A stretch of 64,000 bases of DNA. Origin: Clostridia bacterium (GTDB lineage Bacteria > Bacillota > Clostridia > Oscillospirales > Acutalibacteraceae). The position numbers and the translations under genes were made by a program. The notes below the pieces were generated by a model, which was given only the letters and a program-made list of their open reading frames with translations, was not told the DNA's origin and did no database searches. Shown one piece after another: positions 1 through 12,314 of the stretch. Location of the stretch: NCBI GenBank assembly GCA_017516745.1, contig JAFXBF010000017.1, positions 42,331 through 106,330 of the forward strand, read 5' to 3'. Within the stretch, counting starts at the first letter, position 1. The number at the start of each line of letters is the position of its first letter.

Positions 1-973
1 TTTCAAGCAGAAAGCCAATGATATCAACAAGACCGGTACCGCAAATTCCCTTGGGAGCTGTATTGTTAATTGTTTCAGCCTTTCCGTTTGTAAATGAATA
101 AACAGCACCGTCACAAGCACTCATACCGCAGGATATATTTGCGCCTTCAAAGCAAGGACCTGCTGCCGCCGCTGTACAAACAATATCTTCGTCAGAAAAC
201 AAAACCGTTTCCGCATTTGTTCCAAGATCAATAAGAATATTGTATTTACCGCTTTCAGGCTGACCGACAAAGTTAAGACCCGCAACAATATCTGCACCGA
301 CAAAAGCTGAAACGCAGGGAAGCGAAACAACATCTGATATTCCTGACAGACCTAATTCTGAACCCGATGCATATTTTGATTCAAGAAAAATAGGTGTATA
401 AGGTGCGACACCGATTGTTGAACAGTCAATGCCGAAAAATAAGTGAAGCATAGTCGTATTGCCTGTAACAAAAAGCGGTAAATTATTACCGACATTTAGC
501 TTATATATCAGTCGGTTAACCTCTTCAATAAGCGGTAGCTGCAACGGTTTAACACCGTTATTGCGGCAGTAATCAATTCTCGATATTACATCAGCGCCGA
601 ATCTGCGTTGCGGATTTACAGCCGTTTCAACCGATATTACTTTCTTTTCGTCAAGTGAAACGAGTGCAAGTGCAAGCGTAGTTGTGCCTATATCGAGGAC
701 AAAACAGGCGTTTTGTGTAATCACCCCTGTTTCATCGGCACCCGTTACGGATACTATATTCGTATTTTCACAGGCGGTTACAACAATATCGGAATTGACT
801 TTATATTGGCAGGATAAAGCTTTCTCACCGTTTACGCTGACCAAGCATTTACGGCATATCCCCTTACCGCCGCACGGATGTTCAACTGCTTTTCCGGCAC
901 GAACAAGCACATCGGACAAAAGCTGACCGTGAGCAGCAAACAGAGTATCACCGTTAAAAATAACCTTATGCAT
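1..973 (-). CDS. RACo-like corrinoid-activating protein, [2Fe-2S] ferredoxin plus ASKHA ATPase domain (3' end cut by window)
   Basis: Reading the minus strand from the ATG at 971-973 gives an open frame of 324 codons that runs off the left edge. The N-terminus carries a plant-type [2Fe-2S] ferredoxin motif (CGGKGICRKC near residues 34-43, with a further Cys near 54). An actin/Hsp70-like phosphate loop follows (DIGTTTLALAL, near residue 94), with a second acidic loop ILIDLGTNAE. This architecture is that of RamA/RACo reductive activators, which use ATP to return Co(II)-corrinoid to the active Co(I) state. The start overlaps the stop of the upstream methyltransferase by 8 nt, so the two are translationally coupled. 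The C-terminal part and any following gene lie outside the window. Family assignment is strong; the partner (the corrinoid protein at 1969-2601) is inferred from the operon. Confidence 0.88.
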   Translation of the reverse strand, partial: MHKVIFNGDTLFAAHGQLLSDVLVRAGKAVEHPCGGKGICRKCLVSVNGEKALSCQYKVNSDIVVTACENTNIVSVTGADETGVITQNACFVLDIGTTTLALALVSLDEKKVISVETAVNPQRRFGADVISRIDYCRNNGVKPLQLPLIEEVNRLIYKLNVGNNLPLFVTGNTTMLHLFFGIDCSTIGVAPYTPIFLESKYASGSELGLSGISDVVSLPCVSAFVGADIVAGLNFVGQPESGKYNILIDLGTNAETVLFSDEDIVCTAAAAGPCFEGANISCGMSACDGAVYSFTNGKAETINNTAPKGICGTGLVDIIGFLLE

Positions 974-1955
974 AAAGCTCATTTACCTTTTTAAAATATG
1001 CGTCTATGTTTTCCCACTTTGCATCGGCAGGCACATCACAGCCTGTTGAAATCATAAAATTAGGATAGGATGAACATTCGTTGAAAATACGTTCAACTTC
1101 TGCAGAAACACATTCGGGTGTGCCTGTGCGCAGTAGCAACGGGTCAACATTACCCATTACGATTCTATCGTTTGGTAAGAAATCAAGTGCTTTCTTTATA
1201 TCTACAGCGTTACCGAAATGATAAATATCAGCACCAACTGTTGAAATACCCTCAAGCATATCAGCAACATAGTTGCCGCAGTTGTGGTAACAGAGAACAA
1301 AAACATCCGAATTTACTGCATCAAAAATTCTTTTAACAAACGGTACTGAAAACTCATCGGCAAACGTGGGTGACAGCATACCTGCAGCAGGCTCAGCCAT
1401 AATAACTCCGTCAGCACCGACCGCTTTGAAAGCATTGATATAATTTATTATAAATTCCGCAGCTTTTTCAAGCAGAATTTTAACTTCATCAGGGCTGTCA
1501 TAACAGGCATACATAAGCTCTGTCATATCGAAAAGACGGCTTGCAAGGGAATAAGGCCCGATTACACCGCAGAAAACGGGTATATCGGCTATTATATCTT
1601 TTGCTATTTTTACTCCGTCAATGAAAATGCCCGTTCTGCCTGCACCTGTTTGAGGTACTGCAATCCTTGATACATCTTCAATATCATCAATAATTCCGCC
1701 GATAACCGTAGGAATTTCATTTTCACTGAAATGTATCTTTGCGCCGAAGGCTTCTGCCTCGACAGATAAATCCATCATATTAAGCGAAGCGCCAATACTG
1801 CATCTCTCGGCAATTGCTTTCATACCCTTCGCCTGATTATCGGCAGAAGATATCAGGTCATTAACACTTATACTGAGCAGTTTAGTTGACGGAAAGCTGA
1901 GTATGGGTACGGTTTTATTTTTGTTTTCGATTATATTCTGTACAATTGTTTTCAT
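966..1955 (-). CDS. URO-D-family zinc methyltransferase (MtaA/MtbA-like corrinoid methyltransferase)
   Basis: A 329-aa protein of the uroporphyrinogen-decarboxylase fold. It has the zinc motif His-x-Cys (H224-N-C226, in LCYHNCGN) and a distal Cys (C306, in ISTGCDVP) that define MtaA/MtbA/CmuA-like cobamide-dependent methyltransferases rather than haem-pathway HemE. It lies directly after a corrinoid protein and before a RACo-like activator, so transfer of methyl to or from the corrinoid is the likely role. The acceptor or donor is unknown; coenzyme M is not expected in this kind of host. The ATG at 1955 is preferred over an upstream in-frame ATG inside the corrinoid gene, because the shorter form begins 13 nt after that gene's stop behind a CAGGACAG site. 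Confidence 0.85.
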   Translation of the reverse strand: MKTIVQNIIENKNKTVPILSFPSTKLLSISVNDLISSADNQAKGMKAIAERCSIGASLNMMDLSVEAEAFGAKIHFSENEIPTVIGGIIDDIEDVSRIAVPQTGAGRTGIFIDGVKIAKDIIADIPVFCGVIGPYSLASRLFDMTELMYACYDSPDEVKILLEKAAEFIINYINAFKAVGADGVIMAEPAAGMLSPTFADEFSVPFVKRIFDAVNSDVFVLCYHNCGNYVADMLEGISTVGADIYHFGNAVDIKKALDFLPNDRIVMGNVDPLLLRTGTPECVSAEVERIFNECSSYPNFMISTGCDVPADAKWENIDAYFKKVNELYA

Positions 1956-1968
1956 AATTCTGTCCTGA

Positions 1969-2601
1969 TTATCTGCAAAGTTCAACAGCGGCATCCGCAG
2001 CACTTGCGGCATCAGAAGTATAAACGTCAGCACCGATATTTTTGCAGAATTCCTCTGTAATCGGAGCACCGCCTATCATAATTTTAATCCTTTCACGGAC
2101 TCCTGCAATTTCAGCTTGCTTTACAACCTCAGCCATTTCATCCATTGTTGTTGTGAGAAGTGCCGAACAGCAGATAACCTTGCAATCCTGCTCAATTGCT
2201 GTGTTCACAAAGGCTTCGGGTGCAACATCTGTGCCAAGGTCAATAACCTCAAGCCCCTTACCTTCCATCATCATTTTAACAAGATTTTTACCGATATCGT
2301 GCATATCGCCACGAACGGTACCGAGGCATACCTTACCGACAGCCTGAACATTGCCTTCTGTAAGCAAAGGCTTGAGTATTGCAACACCTGCATTCATCGC
2401 CCTTGCCGCAACAAGTACCTCGGGCACGTAAACCTCGTTATTTTTAAAGCGCTCGCCTATTTCATTCATACCGACAAGAAGACCGAGATTTAATATGTCT
2501 TCAGCAGGAAGACCGGAATCAACAGCTGACTGAACAAGCTCTTTTACCATTTTCATTTTGCCCGTGCGGACGTTTTCTGATATTTCAAGATATATACTCA
2601 T
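1969..2601 (-). CDS. Corrinoid (B12-binding) methyl-carrier protein
   Basis: A 210-aa protein with a helical cap domain (about residues 1-85) followed by a Rossmann-like cobalamin-binding domain. The base-off/His-on signature D-x-H-x-x-G is present as D99-M-H101-D-I-G104. The length and architecture match MtaC/MtbC/MtmC and O-demethylase corrinoid proteins. It would carry the methyl group on cobalt between the two URO-D proteins encoded on either side (2616-3734 and 966-1955). The cobalt would be re-reduced by the RACo-like protein at 1-973. The spacing to both neighbours (14 and 13 nt) supports one transcript. Confidence 0.92.
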   Translation of the reverse strand: MSIYLEISENVRTGKMKMVKELVQSAVDSGLPAEDILNLGLLVGMNEIGERFKNNEVYVPEVLVAARAMNAGVAILKPLLTEGNVQAVGKVCLGTVRGDMHDIGKNLVKMMMEGKGLEVIDLGTDVAPEAFVNTAIEQDCKVICCSALLTTTMDEMAEVVKQAEIAGVRERIKIMIGGAPITEEFCKNIGADVYTSDAASAADAAVELCR

Positions 2602-2615
2602 AATTAGTACTCCTC

Positions 2616-3734
2616 TTAAATTCGAATCTTCTTTATTTCTTCGGCGTAATACTGCACAAGCTCAAATTTAGTGCCCGGCATCAATCTGTGGTCGGGACAG
2701 GGAATAAATCCACCCATCGAGGCAAGCCGCTTCATACGCTGAATTTCGGCGTCAACAGCCGCTTTATCCTTACGCAAAGCGGTTTTGTCCATACCGCCGA
2801 CACCAAGCATTCCCTTGCCGAATTTGTTTCGTGCGACCTCAAATTGGTCTCCCCATACACCGATTTCAATCGGGAACATTGTGTTGACACCGTTTTTAAA
2901 CCACGTAGGCAACAGCTTTTCCGTAACACCGTCACAGTCAAGCGAAATAATATCTATTCCGTATTCGTGACATAAATCATTGCGCTTTTTATAATGCTTT
3001 GCACAAAGCTCATCAAACTTTTCCGGTGATATCAACGGACCGTTTTTAAAACAGATATCCTCCCAATAATGCGCAAAATCAAACCTTGCGCCCGTTTCAA
3101 GAATTTCTTTGACACATTTATACTGCATTTCGGCAAAGGTATCGACAATGTCGGCAAAAAGTTCTTCGTCTTCATCATACATAAGATAGCTCATACCTAC
3201 AACCGAAGTCATATCACGGATGCTTCCCAATACACTTCCGAGGTGAAGACCTACAGGTCTGTCATAATCACGGGTTTCGTTGAAATTTTTGAAATAATCG
3301 TAATTTACTCGTTCGGGTGAAAACTGCATTTTGGGCTTATAAAGATTTTCAAAAGCCTCTCTGTCCTTTAGAGTGTAATCGTCTTCGGACGGGATAGAAG
3401 CTATACCCGGTTTGATTCGTTCTATAACACCTGCACCGTTTAAAACTCTGCGTGACCCGTCGGGCAAGATTTCGAGCTCTTTTTGTTCAAAGCAAGGATA
3501 AAGACCGTTGTTTGCTCCTTTTGTGTTGTTCCAGTTAAAATCCCAGCCGATTAATTCATCGAGCGCTTTGTCCATTTCGCCGCCGTCGCCTATACCGCCT
3601 GCAAAATCTTTCGGTATCTTACCCTGCTCAACCCATTCGGTAAGCAGTTCGCCCCAATAGCCGAAATGAACGGCAGGCAAACGGTCAACATCTTTATAAT
3701 GCAGTATATTCAGCGCTCTTTCACGGTTAGTCAT
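2616..3734 (-). CDS. URO-D-family protein, candidate substrate-specific methyltransferase of the corrinoid system
   Basis: A 372-aa protein of the uroporphyrinogen-decarboxylase superfamily. It starts with the MTNRERALNIL opening common to these methyltransferases (compare 'NRERVLAAL' in HemE-like proteins). It lacks the His-x-Cys zinc motif of its neighbour: the equivalent segment reads ISLDCDGV and the distal one IPCPDHRLMPG. The cysteines are kept, but the His is replaced and Asp/His occur nearby. Lying immediately upstream of the corrinoid protein, it is a good candidate for the methyltransferase that takes the methyl group from the substrate. This is inference from position and family. 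A true HemE role is unlikely because no other haem gene is near. Confidence 0.75.
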   Translation of the reverse strand: MTNRERALNILHYKDVDRLPAVHFGYWGELLTEWVEQGKIPKDFAGGIGDGGEMDKALDELIGWDFNWNNTKGANNGLYPCFEQKELEILPDGSRRVLNGAGVIERIKPGIASIPSEDDYTLKDREAFENLYKPKMQFSPERVNYDYFKNFNETRDYDRPVGLHLGSVLGSIRDMTSVVGMSYLMYDEDEELFADIVDTFAEMQYKCVKEILETGARFDFAHYWEDICFKNGPLISPEKFDELCAKHYKKRNDLCHEYGIDIISLDCDGVTEKLLPTWFKNGVNTMFPIEIGVWGDQFEVARNKFGKGMLGVGGMDKTALRKDKAAVDAEIQRMKRLASMGGFIPCPDHRLMPGTKFELVQYYAEEIKKIRI

Positions 3735-3740
3735 AACATA

Positions 3741-4628
3741 TCACCCGTTTTGCTCGGTTTCTTTCTTGCAGGAATAATAAATTGACTCCAGCTTTTCGTT
3801 TGTGGCAGTTCTGTCAATAATCGCCTTAACAAGGCTGTCAAGCTCCGTGCCTTCGGAATAATCGGCAGGAGCAAAATATCTGATTCGTCTGTCACGCATC
3901 ATTCTGTAAACCTTGGTTTTATTCCTGGTTTGTGCATCATACACACCTATTGAATGTCCACCGTAGGAACTGACAAGCTTCATACAGGGTATATCCGTAT
4001 CGCTGTCACCGATATAAACCATATTGCGGAATGGGACACGGATTTCCTCGGCAGGAAAATAATCGTTTACACGGGGGTCGTTTACATCAAGCACACCCTT
4101 CTGTATTCTGAAAAGGAACTGTGTCTTGTTGGTATAATTTACAACCTGCGCAGGCCACTTCGCAACACCACGCTCATTGTACCAGAAAGAACTGGCATAA
4201 ATCTTTTTAAAAGCGCCGTTTTTTGCCATTTCGGTGCCTTCAATCATTTCTTTAAGTCCGGAAGAAATTATGTAATGTTCAACAATTACACCTTTTTCAA
4301 GGCCGTATTGACGGATTCTTTCAAACCATTCATTGACGCCGGGAAACAGCTTAACATTAGCGCCGTATTCGCCAAGTGTTTCCCGTTTGAGCACGAGATT
4401 GCCTTCTGCTTCTTGTACCATCTTGTGCATATACGCAAGGTTCTGGTCCATATCATTTTTTCTTGCGAGCTCATTGGATTCTTTCCAGAAATCCTCAACA
4501 TTATAGCCGACAGACTGAATGTACCCTTGCGCCTGCATATCGTCAGGCGTGAGGGTTTTATCAAAATCGTAGCAGACAGCAAGTACGGGCATTGCTTCCT
4601 TACCGAATTTTATATATGTGTTATCCAT
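3741..4628 (-). CDS. HAD-superfamily phosphatase
   Basis: A 295-aa haloacid-dehalogenase hydrolase. Motif I is D21-F-D23-K-T25 (nucleophile and acid/base Asp). A large helical cap follows, and motif IV is VYIGDSDTDIPC. Such enzymes dephosphorylate small organic phosphates. It sits 6 nt from both neighbours inside the transporter/methyltransferase operon, so its substrate is probably an intermediate of the same pathway, possibly a phosphorylated sugar or cofactor. No particular substrate can be named from sequence. Confidence 0.85.
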   Translation of the reverse strand: MDNTYIKFGKEAMPVLAVCYDFDKTLTPDDMQAQGYIQSVGYNVEDFWKESNELARKNDMDQNLAYMHKMVQEAEGNLVLKRETLGEYGANVKLFPGVNEWFERIRQYGLEKGVIVEHYIISSGLKEMIEGTEMAKNGAFKKIYASSFWYNERGVAKWPAQVVNYTNKTQFLFRIQKGVLDVNDPRVNDYFPAEEIRVPFRNMVYIGDSDTDIPCMKLVSSYGGHSIGVYDAQTRNKTKVYRMMRDRRIRYFAPADYSEGTELDSLVKAIIDRTATNEKLESIYYSCKKETEQNG

Positions 4629-4634
4629 ACGCTT

Positions 4635-5294
4635 TTACCTTGCGTTAAGTCTCGGCTCAACACATTCCTTCCATCGTCTGGCGATAAGCTGATGTCCGCC
4701 GGTTGTGGGGTGAACACCGTCCCACAGGAGTTTAAAAATATCCGTCTTTTTTGCATATTCATCAAAAATATCCTGAAGAGGTACAAAAACAGCATTATAT
4801 TCTTCTGCAACTTCTTTTGTCGCAGCAGCAAAAGAAGCAATATTCGCTTTAGCGTATTTATCCCATTCAGCGTTATCCTTTGAAGTACCGAAAAACGGCT
4901 CCATAATAACTATCAGTACATCGGGATTCACTTCAATTGCTTCATCAAGCATCAAACGGTATATCTTTTTAAAACGCTCTGTATCTGAACCGCAGCCGCA
5001 TTCAAAATTTCCGTAAATATCATTAACTCCGACAAGTATACTCAACACATTCGGCTTAAGATTAATACAATCCTCTTTCCATCTGCCGTAAAGATTGGCA
5101 ATTCTGTTGCCGCTGATGCCTCTGTTGATAACTTCAAAATCCACATCCAAATTATCCGCATGCATTTCTGAAGCTAAAATATACTGATACCCGTGACCGT
5201 GAATATGGTTGAGGTCATCGTTTCTGCCACGATTGCCGTCGGTTATAGAGTCGCCCTGAAAAAGTATAACATCATTGTTTTTAAGTCTGAACAT
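4635..5294 (-). CDS. SGNH/GDSL hydrolase (esterase/lipase-like)
   Basis: A 219-aa SGNH-fold hydrolase. Block I is FQGDSITDGNR with catalytic Ser16, the Gly block is RGISGNR, the Asn block is GVNDIYG, and the final Asp/His block is WDGVHPTTGGH. There is no signal peptide, so it acts in the cytoplasm on an imported substrate. Family members remove acyl or acetyl esters from carbohydrates. Together with the symporter encoded directly upstream (17 nt), it suggests the imported compound is acylated or is a sugar-like ester. Substrate unknown. Confidence 0.88.
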   Translation of the reverse strand: MFRLKNNDVILFQGDSITDGNRGRNDDLNHIHGHGYQYILASEMHADNLDVDFEVINRGISGNRIANLYGRWKEDCINLKPNVLSILVGVNDIYGNFECGCGSDTERFKKIYRLMLDEAIEVNPDVLIVIMEPFFGTSKDNAEWDKYAKANIASFAAATKEVAEEYNAVFVPLQDIFDEYAKKTDIFKLLWDGVHPTTGGHQLIARRWKECVEPRLNAR

Positions 5295-5311
5295 ATAATC
5301 ACCTATGTAAA

Positions 5312-6754
5312 TTATTTAACTGCAAAAGCTCTTGATTTTGTCAAATCGCCGTACATAACCTCAAGCTTTGATTTATTGAGCGGATAAAGCATAAACAGTA
5401 CAAAAACTAAAGTATAAACAATAGCGGGAATTACGGTGCAGACAAAGAGTATGCCTTCGCCGACACCTTCAACATAGCCTGCCGAGCCGTGAACAGCACC
5501 GTCGTAGCCTGCTACGGAAGAGAGCAGCTTCATACCGCCGACATCGGCAAGTGTCTGACCGAGTTTACGGCAGAAGGTATATACGGCGTAAACGGCACTT
5601 TCGCTGCGGATACCTGTTTTGTATTCCTGATAATCAATAACATCCGTTATAACAGCCCAGTTTGTAATGCTGACAAAAGAATATCCGAAGCCGATAATAA
5701 ACAGGAATATCATAAACACAACCGAAGCGTTACCAAGTCTGTCGCAATGGGGAACAATAACAAACATAAGTATTGAAGCTATTGCAGAAAGAAGAGTACC
5801 GATTGTGCAAAGCTCCTTTTTACCGTATTTCTTGACAAGCTTAGGTGTAAACAGAATCATAACCGCCATGGGCAGATATGTTGCAACAGTACCGATAATT
5901 GACAAATCGGTATTTTCAAAGTAATTTTTGTAAAGATACTGGTTGAGTGAGTTGAATTGAAGCTGACCGCTTATAAGTATTCCCGAAAGTGCGGCAATAA
6001 CAAAGGGCTTGCTCTTGAGCATACCGAGATATGTCTGCTTGACATCAACCTTGGGCTCTGCTTCGGAAGCAACTCTCTCCTTTGTCGTTGCAAAACAAAG
6101 GAAATAGAAAATAATGGAAAGCACACCCATTATTATACCGAATTTCATCATACCGCCTGCATCGGCTGCTTTTATGGGATTACCCTGAGAGTTTGTGCCG
6201 ACAACGGTATAAATAATCATCGGGCCGATAAGCAGCGGTATCGCTCCGCCGAGACCTGCACCGACCGAACGGAAGGTGGAAAGAAGCGTTCTGCCCTCGG
6301 GGTCGTCGGTAATAACGGAGGCAAGAGAGCCGTAAGGAATATTCATACCGGTATACATCATACCGAAACCGATATATGAAGCATACATAAGCGCAAGCAC
6401 AACAGCTTCGTTTGTCGTGAAATCTCTGAAATTGACAAAGCAAAGTATTGAAGTTATGCCGAGAGGTATGGCACACCACTTTAAATAGGGTCTGAACTTG
6501 CCGTCTTTACCCGGTCTGCGCTTGGCAACAATTGTACCCCACAATGGATCGTTAATTGCATCCCACAGCCTTGAAATGAGAAGCAGAGTTGTAATTTTGC
6601 TCTCTGCAACCTTGAGAACATCGGTATAAAAAACTTTAAGATAAGATGAAACATAAGTAAGGACAAACAAATTGGCAGCATCGCCGAGACCGTAGCCGAA
6701 TGAGTCCTTCATACCGATTTTGTTAGGGTGTTGAAAAGTACGCTGTTTTTCCAA
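5312..6754 (-). CDS. GPH-family (MelB-like) MFS symporter, first gene of the corrinoid methyltransferase operon
   Basis: A 480-aa membrane protein with about 12 hydrophobic segments and the GPH signature near the N-terminus (SRLWDAINDPLWGTI). This places it with glycoside-pentoside-hexuronide:cation symporters of the MelB type. The start codon is TTG at 6752-6754, chosen because a GAGGAGG Shine-Dalgarno lies 7 nt upstream and a strong promoter lies at 6783-6811. The next Met is after residue 12. As the leading gene of a seven-gene operon it presumably imports the substrate used by the enzymes downstream. The family transports sugars, uronates and some other small solutes, so the cargo is not fixed. 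Confidence 0.88.
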   Translation of the reverse strand: MEKQRTFQHPNKIGMKDSFGYGLGDAANLFVLTYVSSYLKVFYTDVLKVAESKITTLLLISRLWDAINDPLWGTIVAKRRPGKDGKFRPYLKWCAIPLGITSILCFVNFRDFTTNEAVVLALMYASYIGFGMMYTGMNIPYGSLASVITDDPEGRTLLSTFRSVGAGLGGAIPLLIGPMIIYTVVGTNSQGNPIKAADAGGMMKFGIIMGVLSIIFYFLCFATTKERVASEAEPKVDVKQTYLGMLKSKPFVIAALSGILISGQLQFNSLNQYLYKNYFENTDLSIIGTVATYLPMAVMILFTPKLVKKYGKKELCTIGTLLSAIASILMFVIVPHCDRLGNASVVFMIFLFIIGFGYSFVSITNWAVITDVIDYQEYKTGIRSESAVYAVYTFCRKLGQTLADVGGMKLLSSVAGYDGAVHGSAGYVEGVGEGILFVCTVIPAIVYTLVFVLFMLYPLNKSKLEVMYGDLTKSRAFAVK

Positions 6755-6782
6755 AATAATACCTCCTCTTTCCTTTTTTTAC

Positions 6783-6811
6783 AGCATAACATTAAAGAAA
6801 GTAAATTTCAA
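6783..6811 (-). promoter_or_regulatory. Sigma-A type promoter of the transporter/corrinoid operon
   Basis: On the minus strand, -35 TTGAAA (6806-6811) and -10 TATGCT (6783-6788) are separated by exactly 17 nt, about 30 nt upstream of the TTG start of the GPH symporter. No operator-like palindrome was seen next to it. Confidence 0.7.
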
Positions 6812-6847
6812 TAATTGTAACAAAATTGTAACCATTTTATAGCAAAG

Positions 6848-6874
6848 AAAGCCCTTGCATTACGCAAAGGCTTT
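6848..6874. terminator. Probable bidirectional hairpin terminator between spoVM and the transporter operon
   Basis: AAAGCCCTTGC (6848-6858), a 5-nt loop and GCAAAGGCTTT (6864-6874) form an 11-bp stem with one C-A mismatch on the plus strand, followed by TTTTTATT. In minus-strand RNA the mismatch becomes a G-U pair, so the stem is complete. It therefore could back up termination of spoVM as well as act on any plus-strand transcript. Confidence 0.5.
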
Positions 6875-6884
6875 TTTATTAATA

Positions 6885-6917
6885 CTATAAGAAAACCGCC
6901 ATCACGGCGATGGCGGT
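6885..6917 (-). terminator. Rho-independent terminator downstream of spoVM
   Basis: A perfect 9-bp stem, ACCGCCATC (6895-6903) with GATGGCGGT (6909-6917) and a 5-nt loop, is followed on the minus strand by TTTTCTTATAG. It lies 10 nt past the spoVM stop codon and closes the priA-to-spoVM gene series. Confidence 0.75.
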
Positions 6918-6926
6918 AACTTAACG

Positions 6927-7013
6927 CTAAACCGATTCGATTTTCTTAATGCCGAACAACATTCTCAATACACCCTGCAAAGCCTTGGGACTGCGTAACA
7001 CTACAATTTTCAT
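6927..7013 (-). CDS. spoVM: SpoVM, 28-aa stage V sporulation peptide
   Basis: The minus-strand ATG at 7011-7013 opens a 28-codon frame ending TAG at 6927-6929, with an AGGGG site 9 nt upstream. The peptide starts MKIVVLRSPKALQGVLRMLF and ends GIKKIESV. It aligns without gaps to Bacillus SpoVM (26 aa): Met1, Lys2, Pro9, Lys10, Leu12, Gly14, Arg17 and Gly21 are identical, and Pro9 is the residue that breaks the helix. SpoVM is an amphipathic peptide that recognises the convex forespore membrane and anchors SpoIVA for coat assembly. Its position after the rsgA/prkC/prpC genes matches the Bacillus gene order. It is below most gene-caller length limits. No clear sporulation promoter was identified in the 60 nt upstream. 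Confidence 0.87.
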   Translation of the reverse strand: MKIVVLRSPKALQGVLRMLFGIKKIESV

Positions 7014-7073
7014 TATGTATTTCCCCTTTCTGTCATATTTTATGAAAGAAAGGAAAAAAGGGTTACATAAATA

Positions 7074-7961
7074 CTACTTTAGTTCCCAGTCTTTGATGTC
7101 CTTAACCTCGTTGTACATTGCGACATAGCTTTCATGGCGTGATTTCATAACCTCGCCGTTTTCGATTGCTTCACAGATTTTACAGCCCTTATCCGCAACG
7201 TGAGTACAGGTTGAAAACCTGCAAAGCCCGAGGTAAGGCAAAAACTCTTTGAAGCAGAACGGCAGGTTTTCTTTTCTTATCATTAGCTTTGTGTCCATCA
7301 TATCTATTGCGGCAAAGCCGGGAGTATCGGCAATATAACCTCCGCCAACCTTAAACAGCTCAACCTGACGGGTTGTGTGGCGTCCCCTGCCCAGCTTTTC
7401 ACTTATCTCGCCTGTTTCAAGTGCAAGCTCGGGAATAAGAGCGTTTAAAAGCGTGGACTTGCCAACACCCGAATTTCCCGAAAATACACATATGTTGCCG
7501 TTGATAGCCTTACGGATTTCGTCAAGACCCGTACCGTTTGCAGAAGAAACAGTATATGTTTCAAAGCCCGATTTTCTGTAAATATCGGCAAGACCCTCGT
7601 CGGATTTTAAATCTTCTTTTGTAAATACAATTGCACACTCAATTCCCTTGTCCTGTGCAATGGCTGTCATTTTATCAATAACAAGCGTGCTTGGTACAGG
7701 GTCGCAGGTGGAAGCAAGAACAAAGAGCTTGTCAATATTCGCAACGGGCGGACGGATGAGAAAGTTCTTGCGTTCAAGAATTTCATCAAGCGAGCAATAG
7801 CCCTCGTTATTAACCGTAATGCGCACGTTGTCACCGGCAAGCGGTGTTAACCCTTTACGGCGGTGAATACCCTTTGCCTTACATTCGTATATTGTGCCGG
7901 CGGCCTCTACATAGTAGAAGCCGCCAATTCCTTTAATTAAAACGCCGTTCAAAGAACTCAT
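7074..7961 (-). CDS. rsgA: RsgA, small-subunit ribosome biogenesis GTPase
   Basis: A 295-aa circularly permuted GTPase. An N-terminal OB fold is followed by the G4-like FTKEDL, then the P-loop GNSGVGKST and G3 DTPGF. A C-terminal zinc-binding cluster (C-x4-C-x-H-x5-C pattern in CRFSTCTHVADKGC) closes the protein. RsgA binds late 30S precursors and hydrolyses GTP to finish assembly. Its ATG overlaps the stop of prkC by 4 nt (ATGA), so translation is coupled. In Bacillus RsgA (CpgA) is a PrkC substrate, consistent with this arrangement. Confidence 0.96.
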   Translation of the reverse strand: MSSLNGVLIKGIGGFYYVEAAGTIYECKAKGIHRRKGLTPLAGDNVRITVNNEGYCSLDEILERKNFLIRPPVANIDKLFVLASTCDPVPSTLVIDKMTAIAQDKGIECAIVFTKEDLKSDEGLADIYRKSGFETYTVSSANGTGLDEIRKAINGNICVFSGNSGVGKSTLLNALIPELALETGEISEKLGRGRHTTRQVELFKVGGGYIADTPGFAAIDMMDTKLMIRKENLPFCFKEFLPYLGLCRFSTCTHVADKGCKICEAIENGEVMKSRHESYVAMYNEVKDIKDWELK

Positions 7962-10183
7962 CCGAGTACTCCCTTGCCGATAACAATTACTATAGCTGTT
8001 GATGTTGAATACTGCTTATATCTGTTAAGACCGTTAAGCTCGGGCTTCTGATTGATTACCTTGCCGACCTTTGAATTGTCGAGTGTGGTCTGTGTTTCAA
8101 CCGTAATATTGTAGAAGCCCTGGTTATTGAGTGCCTTTTCGGCTGCTTCTCGTGTTTTGCCCTCAACATTCGGGATAATACTCATAGCGCCGTAATAGAA
8201 AGAATCGTAATAAACATCGTCAATTGTCTTTTCGTCGGAAACAGCAATCGGGTCAGCGGTAAAGTTGATTTTACAACTGTAGATGACAGAGCCGTCAATT
8301 TTAACGATAAGAGTATCATCCTTACCCGAACCGCTTACGCAGAAGGAATAGGTGCTGCTGTTGAGAAGCACCTCTGCACCTGCATCATCAACCGCAACAT
8401 TGTTTAGGTAAACCTTAAGCGTACCTGCGTTGCCGTTTTTATAAGGCAGACGTACGGTCATATCAACGGATTTTGTGGGTGCTTTACCCGAGCTTACCTT
8501 GATATCAACCTTTTCACCCTCGTGGATGGGGTCACCGGCTAAAGGTGTCTGTTCAATAACGGTGCCTTCGGGCTGTGTGCTGTCTTCAATAGTAACCTCA
8601 CCGAATTCGAGGTTTACGGATTTGAGAAGATCAAGCGCAATCTCCTGAGAGTAACCGACTATTTCGGGAGTTTCAATAGCATCTGCATCGGTGTGTGAAG
8701 AAACGTAAATGACAACTGTTGAACCGATTGCGGCCTCATCGCCGTGCTCGGGTGAGGTGTTGATAACAACGCCTTCTTCAATACTGGTGTCATATACCAT
8801 TTCGTACGATGTTACAAAGCCTGCTGCCTCAAGTGTCTGCTTTGCAACGAGATAGGACTGACCGTAAACATCGGTAACAAGAGCAGTCTTATTGGTGTTG
8901 ACAGTCAGAAGAATTACATCATCCTCATCAATCTTTTCGCCTTTTTCGGGGCTCTGTTTGATAACCGAACCTACTTCATACTCTGCACTGTATTCATATT
9001 CGATTTCAATGTTGTAGTCCTTATATTTTGAGCTGTCTTTAATTTCAGTTTCGTAAATCATGCCGATAAACTGCGGTACTTTAATTTCGGAGGACTTGAA
9101 AACATCAGTAAAGAAGAACAGCACGGCAAGAATAACAACAAGTACTGCACCGAGACCTGCAACTGCACCCGTAAGAATGGGAATGAGCTTGCTGTTGGAC
9201 TGTGCCTGCTCATCGTCAATTTCTTCGATGATTTCATCATTATCGGTGTTTGTTTCGGCCTCATTAACAACGGGAGTTTTGTTTGCTATCTTTTTGCGGT
9301 CAATAAACTTTGTGGGCTCATTATCAACAAAATACGAATAATCAAACTTGATATCGGGATTACGCTTGTATTCGTCAATATCCAAAAGCATCTGTGCTGC
9401 AGACTGATAGCGTGCGGAAGGCTCTTTCTGCATTGCGTGCATTGTAATCTGCTCAAGGCCGACGGGCACTGCGGAATTTCTTTCACGGGGGCTGTCGGGC
9501 TCATTCTGCAATTGCATAAGAGCAACTGAAACAGCACTGTCAGACTGGAAAGGAAGCGTACCCGTGAGCATTTCATACATAACCACACCGACGGAATATA
9601 TATCCGCCTTGGCATCCGTGAAATCGCCCTTTGCCTGCTCCGGGCTGATATAGTGAACGGAGCCGATAGCACTGTCGGACATTGTTCTCGTGTCACTGCG
9701 GTTAAAGCTGGCAATGCCGAAATCGGTTACCTTGATACTGCCGTTTTGCAGAAGCATAATGTTCTGCGGTTTTACATCACGGTGAACAATGCCTTTATCA
9801 TGAGCATGCTGAAGCGCACGGAGAATCTGTGTAACGAACAGCACAGCTTCTCTGGGCTGAATTACACCCTGCTGCTGGATATACTCTTTAAGAGTAATAC
9901 CCTCAATGTATTCCATTACGATATACTGCAGACGGTCGCCGAAGCTGACATCGTAAACCTTGACGATGTTGGGGTGAGAAAGCACCGCAATATACTTGGA
10001 TTCATTCTTGAATCTTCTGCGGAATTCTTCGTTTGAAATATATTCTTCCTTAAGAATTTTTACCGCAACAATTCTGTCGTCAATATTATCATAGGCTTTA
10101 TAAACAACGGCCATTCCGCCTACGCCTATAATTTCATGTATTTCATATCTGCCGTCTATACGCTTACCAACGTAATTTTCCAT
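7958..10183 (-). CDS. prkC: PrkC-type Ser/Thr kinase with extracellular PASTA domains
   Basis: A 741-aa protein. The Hanks-type kinase domain (about residues 11-275) has GVGGMAVVYKA, Lys42, HRDVKPQN (134-141), DFG (154-156) and the activation-loop IGSVHYISPEQ. A single membrane segment (about 337-361) follows, then several PASTA repeats (starting near VPQFIGMIYE, about 373) that bind peptidoglycan fragments. Between the third and last PASTA units is an extra beta-rich stretch (about 575-690) not typical of short PrkC proteins. It controls growth, germination and wall homeostasis with the phosphatase encoded directly upstream, and overlaps rsgA downstream. Confidence 0.96.
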   Translation of the reverse strand: MENYVGKRIDGRYEIHEIIGVGGMAVVYKAYDNIDDRIVAVKILKEEYISNEEFRRRFKNESKYIAVLSHPNIVKVYDVSFGDRLQYIVMEYIEGITLKEYIQQQGVIQPREAVLFVTQILRALQHAHDKGIVHRDVKPQNIMLLQNGSIKVTDFGIASFNRSDTRTMSDSAIGSVHYISPEQAKGDFTDAKADIYSVGVVMYEMLTGTLPFQSDSAVSVALMQLQNEPDSPRERNSAVPVGLEQITMHAMQKEPSARYQSAAQMLLDIDEYKRNPDIKFDYSYFVDNEPTKFIDRKKIANKTPVVNEAETNTDNDEIIEEIDDEQAQSNSKLIPILTGAVAGLGAVLVVILAVLFFFTDVFKSSEIKVPQFIGMIYETEIKDSSKYKDYNIEIEYEYSAEYEVGSVIKQSPEKGEKIDEDDVILLTVNTNKTALVTDVYGQSYLVAKQTLEAAGFVTSYEMVYDTSIEEGVVINTSPEHGDEAAIGSTVVIYVSSHTDADAIETPEIVGYSQEIALDLLKSVNLEFGEVTIEDSTQPEGTVIEQTPLAGDPIHEGEKVDIKVSSGKAPTKSVDMTVRLPYKNGNAGTLKVYLNNVAVDDAGAEVLLNSSTYSFCVSGSGKDDTLIVKIDGSVIYSCKINFTADPIAVSDEKTIDDVYYDSFYYGAMSIIPNVEGKTREAAEKALNNQGFYNITVETQTTLDNSKVGKVINQKPELNGLNRYKQYSTSTAIVIVIGKGVLG

Positions 10184-10196
10184 TATTTACGCCTCC

Positions 10197-10928
10197 TTAA
10201 GATGCAATTGCAACAACCGTAATATTGTCTCCGCCGCCGTTTGAGTTTGCCATGGCAACAAGCCTTTCGGCATACTCGAAGAAACTGCCGTGTGAAACAG
10301 CGCTGACAATATCCTCATCGCTTACAAAGTTTGTAAGACCGTCCGTACACATCAGAAGAATATCACCGTCAGATATATCCTCTTCGCAAAAATCAACACT
10401 TACGGTTTCTTCAACACCGAGCGCACGGGTTATTATGTTTTTACCGGGATAATTCTTTGCTTCGTCACGGGTTATACTCCCGTTTTCAACCAAGTCCTGA
10501 ACAACGGAATGATCCCTTGTAAGCTGACAAAGCGAGCCGTTTTCGGTAACAACATAAGCTCTGCTGTCGCCGACGTGTGAAATATAAGCGGTTGAATCCA
10601 CAACAAGCACGGCAACACAGGTTGTACCCATACCGTTGAGTGTCTCATCCTTTTGTGACATATCAAACAGGCAGGCGTTTGCGGAAACTATAGCCGATTC
10701 CAGCAGGTTTCGTATAGACGAAGGTCTCATACCGTTACGGTATCCTTCATCAATTGAATGGGAAATCATTTTTACCGCTTCGGCGCTGGCAACATTGCCG
10801 CCTGCGGCACCGCCCATTCCGTCGCAAACAACTGCCCAGGCTACACCTCCGGGAAGTTCACCCGCCGCATAGGAATCCTGATTGTTGCTGCGTACCAATC
10901 CTATATCTGTTTTTGCTGTGATTTTCAT
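10197..10928 (-). CDS. prpC: PP2C-type Ser/Thr phosphatase PrpC/Stp
   Basis: A 243-aa PPM phosphatase. It has the metal-binding motifs RSNNQDS (near residue 14), VCDGMGG (near 36), HVGDSRAYV, LMCTDGLTNFV and GGGDNITVV. It reverses phosphorylation by PrkC, whose gene begins 13 nt downstream behind a GGAGG site that overlaps the prpC stop. The leader is odd: the nearest strong GGGGAGG lies about 35 nt upstream of this ATG at the edge of a dispersed repeat (10971-11251). An in-frame TAA blocks any longer reading. Confidence 0.95.
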   Translation of the reverse strand: MKITAKTDIGLVRSNNQDSYAAGELPGGVAWAVVCDGMGGAAGGNVASAEAVKMISHSIDEGYRNGMRPSSIRNLLESAIVSANACLFDMSQKDETLNGMGTTCVAVLVVDSTAYISHVGDSRAYVVTENGSLCQLTRDHSVVQDLVENGSITRDEAKNYPGKNIITRALGVEETVSVDFCEEDISDGDILLMCTDGLTNFVSDEDIVSAVSHGSFFEYAERLVAMANSNGGGDNITVVAIAS

Positions 10929-10970
10929 AGTGCAAATCCGGCGCAGATATTATGTCTCTTGCGCCTCCCC

Positions 10971-11124
10971 TTTCTTAGGGTGGCGAGTATAATCCGAACC
11001 CGTTTTTTGCGGGGCGGATTTCCGCCATCTCTTCGTTAAAATACTCGTAAATCCGTTAGGATTTACTGCGTTTTGTGCCTAGATATGCCAAAAATCCGCT
11101 TCGCAAAAAATCTACGACCCAAAA
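10971..11124. repeat. Dispersed 154-bp structured repeat, copy A
   Basis: It aligns without gaps to 39780-39933 with 8 mismatches (about 95% identity). It contains a perfect hairpin GTAAATCC/GGATTTAC (11047-11066). It also has a longer stem, TTTTTTGCGGGGCGGATT (11003-11020) with AATCCGCTTCGCAAAAAA (11093-11110), which is fully paired if G-U pairs in plus-strand RNA are counted. None of the 8 differences falls in these stems. The copy lies 42 nt upstream of prpC. Confidence 0.9.
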
Positions 11125-11251
11125 GTGCGAATTTTTGATGGATTTTTGGATGTTGAGGATGCCGACAGGCTGTCGCCTTTCAAATCCGAAACACCGAAAA
11201 GTCGCAAAAATTCACGCTTTTGGGCGAGTTCGAATTGTACTCGACACCCTA
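10976..11251. mobile_element. MITE-like palindromic element containing repeat copy A
   Basis: This fills most of the 354-nt gap between rlmN and prpC. Its ends form imperfect terminal inverted repeats of 27 bp (10976-11002 with 11225-11251, 23 of 27 matching). A second inverted pair lies inside (11118-11137 with 11205-11224, 18 of 20). No transposase is encoded; the single short open frame across it has no recognisable product. The terminal repeats and a second genomic copy of its left half suggest a non-autonomous element. No target duplication could be recognised with confidence. Confidence 0.6.
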
Positions 11252-11282
11252 TGGAGTAATGCAAAATAAATATCTATATTAA

Positions 11283-12314
11283 TCAAGCCTTTTTGTGCTT
11301 GCTTCTTAACTGACCGCAGGAAGCGTCAATATCGCCGCCGAGGCTTCGGCGCACGGTAACATTTCTTCCGCTCTTTTCAAGAATTTCGGTAAATTTCTTT
11401 ATTCTTTCGGGTGTGCTGGATTTCAGTCCCGATTCCGTTACATCGTTGGCAGGAATGAGATTTATATGGGATAATGTACCCTTGAGCTTATTCGCCAACT
11501 CCCGTGCACATTCATCACTGTCATTAACTCCGCCGAACATAGCATATTCGTATGAAATTCTGCGTGATGTGGCATTAGTGTATTCACGGCAGGCAGCTAA
11601 AAGTTCGTCAACACCATACTTTTTGTTAACGGGCATAAGCCGTGAACGGATTTCATCATTCGGTGCGTGAAGCGAAACAGAAAGGGTAAGCTGTAAATCC
11701 TCCTGCTGCAGCTTCTTGATACCGGGTATTATTCCGCAGGTGGAAAGAGAGATATTTCTCATACCGATATTAAGTCCGTCATCAGCATTGACAAGCTTTA
11801 AAAAGCGAATAACATTGTCGTAATTATCCATAGGCTCGCCCATACCCATAAGAACTATATGCGAAACTCTTATGTTCATATCGTTCTGTGCGGCGTGAAT
11901 CTGGCTGAGTATTTCGGCAGGTGTGAGATTTCTGACAAAGCCGCCGACACCCGTAGCACAGAAGGCACAGTTCATTCGGCAGCCGACCTGAGTGGAAACA
12001 CAAAGCGAATAACCGTACTTATATTTCATCAGTACGCTTTCGATAAACTCACCGTCAATAAGTCTGAACAGATATTTTACCGTTGAATCGAGCGCTGAAA
12101 CAGACTTTTTCTCAACCTCGCAACCAAAAATATCAAACTCATTTTTCAGTTTTTCACGAAGGTCTTTGGAAATATTTGTCATTAAGTCAAACGACATAAC
12201 ACCTTTTTCCTGCAGCCATTGCCACACCTGTTTGGCACGAAAGGCAGGAAGACCAAGCTCGGAAAAAGCAGAGGAAAGTTCAGCCTGAGTCATGGATTTG
12301 ATATCTCTTTTCAA
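11283..12314 (-). CDS. rlmN: RlmN, dual-specificity 23S rRNA/tRNA adenine-C2 methyltransferase
   Basis: A 343-aa radical-SAM enzyme with the [4Fe-4S] motif CRMNCAFC, preceded by STQVGC. The C-terminal catalytic Cys segment is GDIDASCGQL. It methylates C2 of A2503 in 23S rRNA and A37 of some tRNAs through a methyl-Cys intermediate. I prefer the TTG at 12312-12314 as start because an AGAGGAG site lies 8 nt upstream. The longer TTG start at 12332 overlaps that site. It begins 4 nt after the rsmB stop, as in Bacillus. Confidence 0.95.
   Translation of the reverse strand: MKRDIKSMTQAELSSAFSELGLPAFRAKQVWQWLQEKGVMSFDLMTNISKDLREKLKNEFDIFGCEVEKKSVSALDSTVKYLFRLIDGEFIESVLMKYKYGYSLCVSTQVGCRMNCAFCATGVGGFVRNLTPAEILSQIHAAQNDMNIRVSHIVLMGMGEPMDNYDNVIRFLKLVNADDGLNIGMRNISLSTCGIIPGIKKLQQEDLQLTLSVSLHAPNDEIRSRLMPVNKKYGVDELLAACREYTNATSRRISYEYAMFGGVNDSDECARELANKLKGTLSHINLIPANDVTESGLKSSTPERIKKFTEILEKSGRNVTVRRSLGGDIDASCGQLRSKHKKA

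Follow-up and report, generated by a model that had tools for sequence, protein, structure and literature searches.

Closest described systems and proposed function

The O-demethylases of acetogens and methanogens (MtvABC, OdmABCD, MtoABCD) and the Cdm chloromethane system combine a URO-D-fold methyltransferase I (MTI) and a small corrinoid carrier with an ATP-dependent RACo-type activator and a separate methyltransferase II (MTII) (PMC8630106, PMC13222342). In these systems MTII uses folate (or tetrahydromethanopterin) and feeds the C1 pathway. A seven-gene operon of similar build was found at the start of the window, a 64,000-nucleotide stretch (contig 16:42331-106330) of a 2.89-Mb Clostridia genome that is 97% complete. 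It encodes a GPH-family symporter (GPH), an SGNH hydrolase, a HAD-type phosphatase, a divergent URO-D donor methyltransferase (MT1), a corrinoid carrier, a second URO-D methyltransferase (MT2) and a RACo-type activator (Table 1). A URO-D-fold donor enzyme, a carrier and an activator are shared with acetogen-type O-demethylases, but no folate MTII was found in the genome, and MT2 is instead MtaA/MtbA-like with a thiol-type site. Also unlike those systems, the 17 sampled genomes with a close MT1 lacked acetyl-CoA synthase, and the MT1 profile missed CdmB.

The type 1 mlp clusters of Kountz and Balskus (PMC10418091) resemble the operon in holding multiple URO-D methyltransferases, a carrier and an activator without a folate MTII, and their MtaA-like His-Cys-Cys enzymes resemble MT2. 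They differ in that MT1 is a divergent URO-D protein with an Asp/Asp/His site and that sugar genes lie near some of the related loci. Type 1 mlp clusters are defined by two MtaA-like His-Cys-Cys enzymes (Mlp2 and Mlp3), whereas the operon has MT2 only, and MT1 gave no match to MtaA/MtbA. On the donor side the operon looks like an acetogen O-demethylase; its acceptor side resembles SCMT/Mlp enzymes. It lacks a defining feature of each family.

We tentatively read the locus as a corrinoid O-demethylation operon of a non-acetogen, in which a methyl sugar, most likely, is imported and demethylated and the methyl group passed to a thiol. GPH would import the O-methylated substrate, most probably a methylated plant-cell-wall sugar, and SGNH would deacetylate it. 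MT1 would transfer the methyl group to the Co(I) carrier, MT2 would move it from methyl-Co(III) to homocysteine, sulfide or another thiol, and RACo would re-reduce the corrinoid cofactor. The benefit would be the released fermentable sugar, not the methyl group. If true, corrinoid demethylation would serve sugar release instead of methyl-based growth, and fiber breakdown could connect to methionine or methanethiol.

Aerobic marine P450 demethylation of 6-O-methylgalactose would serve the same end, freeing a methylated sugar for catabolism, but depends on oxygen (PMC10033563); the anaerobic mechanism for this sugar was called still undiscovered in 2025 work on porphyran degradation in the gut (PMC12316285). 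A corrinoid system with a thiol acceptor could fill this gap in anaerobic methyl-sugar demethylation. No title or abstract start among the literature matches listed, from a library without most subscription journals, dealt with corrinoid demethylation of sugars.

Conservation of the operon

MT1 was searched in 295 sampled genomes of the order. Some match was obtained in 55 (E ≤ 1e-10), and a full-length MT1 at 70% identity or more in 17 (own genome included); in 22 more the best match was a full-length sister at 45-51% identity. Partial matches in G174, G215 and G109 were left out of these counts. A scan of genome contigs gave 225 confirmed relatives, and the best 80 of the 225 were used (81 loci with the own locus), with genes called by a codon-usage caller. 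Nearly all were metagenome-assembled Clostridia, plus Eisenbergiella porci (strain WCA-389-WT-23B, L102, with an MT1 of 80% identity), and many came from the guts of goat, sheep, deer, buffalo, cattle or yak.

At 41 well-flanked loci (own included; flanks of 4 kb or more upstream and 6 kb or more downstream), genes within 6 kb of MT1 included the carrier in 35, MT2 in 28, a DUF2284 protein in 25 and RACo in 23. Carrier, MT2 and RACo were all present within this distance in 20/41 loci, and none of these or DUF2284 in 6/41. The MT1/carrier/MT2/RACo core is recurrent in gut Clostridia; SGNH and HAD accompany it in two very close relatives only. Homologs of both were clustered in 3/81 loci (own, L071 and L072, whose MT1 are 92% and 90% identical to the own MT1), and the own-type GPH in 4/81, these three and L073, where a sulfatase lies between GPH and MT1. 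In L077, L078 and L109 the core is followed by transporters of a different MFS_2 group. GPH, SGNH and HAD were all unmatched at 33 further loci (tblastn, E ≤ 1e-8). The core is therefore the unit, and the remaining genes are local cargo. A plasmid search returned two records with a distant URO-D protein (~26% identity).

The DUF2284 protein, a predicted metal-binding protein, stands beside the core in 46/81 loci (cluster K2; e.g., L074; also L046:6976-7527 and L043:3257-3886) and is missing from the window operon; it is perhaps an electron donor to RACo. Two further clusters near MT1 had no Pfam match, one in 12 loci (L110:4165-5418), by eye perhaps a divergent URO-D protein, and one in 4 loci (L124:11172-12236), by eye divergent URO-D-like.

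Presumed metal sites of MT1 and MT2

A shared URO-D fold of MT1 and MT2 was accepted because Pfam (41.4 bits for MT1, cut-off 23.9; 180.7 bits for MT2) and both profiles, each of which matched MtbA and UroD, agree on it. BLASTP between the two gave no significant similarity, and hhalign of their alignments a probability of 0.3%. The His-x-Cys...Cys residues of MtbA are its zinc ligands. In a profile alignment (A3) with MtbA (4ay7), in which residues were paired by eye, MT1 D266 and D268 fell on the His/Cys pair and H349 on the second Cys, giving Asp-x-Asp...His as the MT1 equivalent of the MtbA site, whose ligands are likewise given as zinc-binding in PMC10418091. Among the 80 called MT1 genes (own included; MT1 of L107 was not called), D-C-D occurred in 79 and C-P-D-H in 80. 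MT2 genes, aligned with MtbA, carried H-N-C in 43/43 and G-C in 40/43. By a rough pattern, the remaining 38 proteins in the MT1 cluster divided into H-S-D (12), D-S-D or alike (~18), H-S-C (6), D-C-D (1) and indistinct (1).

Carboxylates, or a site that has lost its Cys ligands, point to O-methyltransferases, and His-Cys-Cys is typical of S-methyltransferases acting on sulfur or selenium (PMC10418091). By analogy, the carboxylate site of MT1 suggests an O-type donor enzyme and the site of MT2 a thiol-type acceptor enzyme. The same residues bear on the idea that the operon is a type 1 mlp-like system for methylated sulfur or selenium compounds. The architecture described above and the MtaA-like MT2 speak for it; however, the Mlps of type 1 clusters carry His-Cys-Cys, some Mlps1 excepted (PMC10418091), in contrast to Asp-x-Asp...His in MT1, and phmmer with MT1 found no match to MtbA at E ≤ 1. 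We regard this explanation as improbable.

N-demethylation of a betaine or methylamine is more remote still. The carrier passed both generic Pfam cut-offs (B12-binding, B12-binding_2), and its nearest curated model was MtgC (glycine betaine), at 207.5 of the 370 bits required; with pyl_corrinoid it reached 184.4 of 215.3 bits. Related carriers serve many donors, however, and the donor enzyme here is URO-D-like rather than MttB, although no search aimed at MttB by name was made.

Elsewhere in the own genome (contig 21, L005:5876-6844) lies the gene of a third URO-D protein, which carries an H-S-D motif; no carrier was recognized by eye among the open reading frames (ORFs) listed near it.

Fate of the methyl group

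MtrH and acetyl-CoA synthase (CdhC) were each found in 0/17 genomes with a close MT1, own genome included; control matches for both searches came from two methanogens only. The absence of MtrH, first noted for the window, thereby extends to the whole own genome. There, no folate-type MTII was found, and Pterin_bind occurred solely in dihydropteroate synthase and MetH. Frames of 594-883 aa with Pterin_bind, a MetH-like size, were present in 14/17 genomes (MetH-like identity was checked for the own frame only). The domain was also found in dihydropteroate synthase in G000 and G014; in G015 it scored under the cut-off, and G086 had no match. A stand-alone methyl-folate:corrinoid methyltransferase occurred in 1/17 genomes (G223, L165:1384-2184), where it adjoins an electron-transfer-flavoprotein-like gene. 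Given the absence of MtrH and this distribution of Pterin_bind, folate is an unlikely methyl acceptor in the 17 genomes, with perhaps one exception. A route from R-O-CH3 over the Co(I) carrier to a thiol is likely, rather than acetogenesis.

These results also bear on a serious rival, that the operon is an aromatic methyl ether O-demethylase in which MT1 acts on methoxylated phenolics and nearby rhamnosidases and glucosidases free the aglycones from glycosides. Members of GH78, GH106 and GH3 also cleave plant glycosides. The corrinoid O-demethylation reported for gut acetogens acts on aryl methyl ethers (PMC12915777), and the metal site of MT1 indicates oxygen and is silent on which ether. Against it, the own genome lacks a folate MTII, in contrast to the acetogen systems, and two products of the window operon are the sugar symporter GPH and the acetylxylan-esterase-like SGNH. 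The MT1 profile had no CdmB match at E ≤ 1, whereas MtbA and UroD matched; CdmB was placed near MtvB/OdmB/VdmB by its authors (PMC13222342), and of these four proteins the comparison covered CdmB. This rival is unlikely, to a degree that still calls for weighing it beside a sugar substrate.

Substrate and neighboring genes

That the substrate is a methylated carbohydrate, as originally suggested, drew moderate support from the metal-site carboxylates, the acetylxylan-esterase-like SGNH (nearest solved chains 4q9a and acetyl xylan esterase, 5bn1 and 3w7v/4jhl) and sugar genes near some relatives. GPH exceeded the cut-off of the symporter model TIGR00792 (288.5 vs 231.35 bits, NCBIfam; MFS_2 in Pfam). 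Using GPH and SGNH as pointers to the substrate fared less well. Because SGNH and HAD stand beside MT1 in two relatives (L071, L072) and GPH in three (these and L073), they are local and have little bearing on the substrate of the conserved core.

Genes near MT1 of the relatives encoded GH95, GH78, GH106, GH127, GH51-like and GH3 proteins, a pectin-lyase-fold protein, a sulfatase, L-rhamnose isomerase, a mannitol-dehydrogenase-type protein and altronate dehydratase; these were picked by eye, mostly among large proteins, a biased selection, and the same scans held housekeeping genes (argininosuccinate synthase, phosphoglycerate mutase, TldD). An unselected Pfam scan covered 112 co-directional non-core neighbors of at least 150 aa at 78 loci (excluding L078, a copy of L077, L107, whose MT1 was uncalled, and the own locus). 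Among the matches listed (25 of 155 families) were MFS_1 (5), MFS_2 (4), metallophosphatase (4) and DUF5722 (3), and, as glycoside hydrolases, GH106 (3), GH95 (2), GH78 (2) and GH32 (2). Profiles seeded from the loci found GH106 6, GH78 3 and GH95 2 times in 836 kb of non-core flank at 80 loci, 11 in total vs ~3.8 expected from densities in the 17 genomes. All 11 lay on the MT1 strand, against a norm of 62% for large neighbors.

Several observations weigh against the sugar reading or the evidence for it. By family, expected numbers were 1.0 for GH106 (its density a rough count, ~45 genes from 66 match rows), 2.2 for GH78 and 0.7 for GH95, and only GH106 exceeded its expectation individually. 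The excess is partly a product of the method, because the profiles had been seeded from the very loci searched, whereas Pfam supplied the genome rates, and because the loci are related. Match rows within 10 kb of MT1 in the 17 genomes numbered 2/99 for GH78, 1/30 for GH95 and 0/66 for GH106, and in 33/78 loci the MT1 gene run held no non-core gene of at least 150 aa. Metal binding by MT1 is assumed; no near relative of MT1 was present among solved structures, and CdmB and a Moorella O-demethylase were reported zinc-free (PMC13222342). Of the 17 genomes in which MtrH and CdhC were not found, 10 reach 90% completeness or more with contamination of 5% or less.

An argument from co-occurrence of glycoside hydrolases in genome counts was dropped, as these genomes are rich in them anyway. 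Overall, sugar genes near MT1 are modestly enriched, to an extent that varies with the test. Linked xylan or pectin genes had been named originally as something to look for; rhamnosidase, GH95, uronate or rhamnose genes were seen near some relatives. A methylated sugar is a plausible substrate. Rhamnogalacturonan II is the favored source because GH106, GH95, GH78 and GH127 act on it; it contains 2-O-methyl-xylose. It is a dietary plant fiber that also contains 2-O-methyl-fucose, released by GH139, not GH95 (PMC12282258).

The original suggestion of 4-O-methylglucuronate from xylan was not supported and is highly improbable. In its favor, SGNH is related to acetyl xylan esterases, GPH scored 228 bits with a glucuronide transporter model (below its cut-off of 528), and L040 has mannitol-dehydrogenase-type (UxaB-like) and altronate-dehydratase genes beside MT1. 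Against this, GH67 and GH115 were not found in the own genome and occurred in 0/17 and 2/17 genomes with a close MT1; both are rare in the order sample (17/295 and 15/295) and showed no association with MT1 (Fisher, P = 0.61 and 0.21). Ready-made 4-O-methylglucuronate could possibly be supplied by other species.

AraC-carrier fusions in relatives

In 20/80 loci the carrier shares one reading frame with an AraC-type regulator (L134:7287-8864, L133:11163-12731, L124:8464-9981 and 17 others), and all 20 fused carriers keep the corrinoid motif DLHDIG. L041 was a further case (HTH_18, E = 7e-21). The window operon has a plain carrier.

At fusion loci without another carrier, the start of the carrier part was marked by an internal ATG and a strong Shine-Dalgarno sequence in 16/17, and at those also holding a free carrier (L090, L113, L129) in 0/3 (Fisher, P = 0.0035; rows are related and P is indicative). 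With L041 and L043 added, the counts were 17/18 vs 0/4 (P = 0.0007, rows again related). L108 is the exception: its carrier clusters with the fused one of L129 and has a long branch, as if its free carrier were encoded elsewhere. The fused and free carriers of L090 are sisters, and the free carrier of L129 stands next to the fused pair in the tree; in both loci the fused copy is on the longer branch, as expected if duplication relieved it of its carrier role. The frame of the free carrier in L113 is split, possibly by an assembly error. Among 398 genomes of the phylum, fusion matches at E ≤ 1e-100 were obtained in two only, of one genus; in these, AraC and carrier are neighbors separated by a TAA, after which come a Shine-Dalgarno sequence and ATG.

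In our reading of these sequences, one fusion frame may yield two products through two translation starts, a free carrier and a regulator equipped with a corrinoid sensor of its own, and the state of the cofactor itself would report the substrate. Ada is a methylation-activated AraC-type regulator. The fusions are like Ada in joining an AraC-type DNA-binding part to a methyl-accepting part, but unlike it the methyl acceptor would be a corrinoid carrier; by this analogy, they might be activated by methylation. Such a fusion would be a new means of sensing the corrinoid methyl state, and no title or abstract start among the literature matches listed dealt with AraC-corrinoid fusions. The combined proposal, that the operon is the missing anaerobic methyl-sugar demethylation route, disposes of the methyl group by passing it to a thiol, and is ruled in many relatives by an Ada-like AraC-carrier corrinoid switch, is possible and, taken whole, rather doubtful.

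Operon layout and adjoining genes

Table 1. Positions of the operon genes and candidate promoter in the window
Feature	Position	Strand	Remarks
Possible extended -10 promoter of operon	6783..6811	-	TTGAAA-17-TATGCT
GPH-family cation:sugar symporter	5312..6754	-	TTG start at 6754, or ATG giving 466 aa
SGNH hydrolase	4635..5294	-	Lipase_GDSL_2 (Pfam)
HAD-IB-type phosphatase	3741..4628	-	PF12710 45.4 bits, above cut-off; TIGR01488 below cut-off
MT1, divergent URO-D-fold donor methyltransferase	2616..3734	-	D266-C267-D268 ... C346-P-D348-H349
Corrinoid (B12) methyl carrier	1969..2601	-	DMHDIG motif; nearest models MtgC
MT2, MtaA/MtbA-like URO-D methyltransferase	966..1955	-	H-N-C ... G-C site
RACo-type reductive activator, 5' part	1..982	-	Runs past window edge

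The seven genes occupy 1-6754 of the window, and the order, minus strand, tight spacing and Pfam/NCBIfam assignments bore out the families first named for them. Gaps from GPH to MT2 were 17, 6, 6, 14 and 13 nt, followed by a 17-nt overlap of MT2 and RACo (counting MT2 from the ATG at 1955). The D-x-H-x-x-G motif ascribed to the carrier was read as D-M-H-D-I-G. A single promoter is suggested by the tight spacing and a candidate site stands ahead of GPH, but such sites were no commoner than in shuffles (23 in the window vs a mean of 19.9). The HAD phosphatase had no match in a PDB search at E ≤ 0.01, and an Rfam search of window 1-12000 none.

The corrinoid methyl-transfer set is complete, as predicted: RACo continues past the window edge to a whole gene of 465 aa (L004:14916-16313; contig 16:41915-43312). 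Its ASKHA domains were above cut-off (Raco_middle 133.3 bits, RACo_C_ter 181.8 bits), and matches to the 2Fe-2S N-terminus were marginal (22.3 and 19.8 bits, just below cut-off).

Directly upstream of the operon lies a 28-aa ORF (window 6927-7013, minus strand), which we take to be SpoVM-like; the genes ahead of it resemble, by eye, RsgA and a PrkC-type kinase. Beyond RACo, convergent genes encode an MFS transporter, a 745-aa protein (no Pfam match; weak HigB-like PDB matches only), a PfkB kinase and a ribulose-phosphate-epimerase-like protein, and all four are also kept in L071 and L072. Left of these convergent sugar genes, an FAD oxidoreductase (L004:8020-9576; nearest models carotenoid isomerase/CrtI, far under cut-off) is paired with an FAD/NAD/2Fe-2S reductase (L004:6819-8018).

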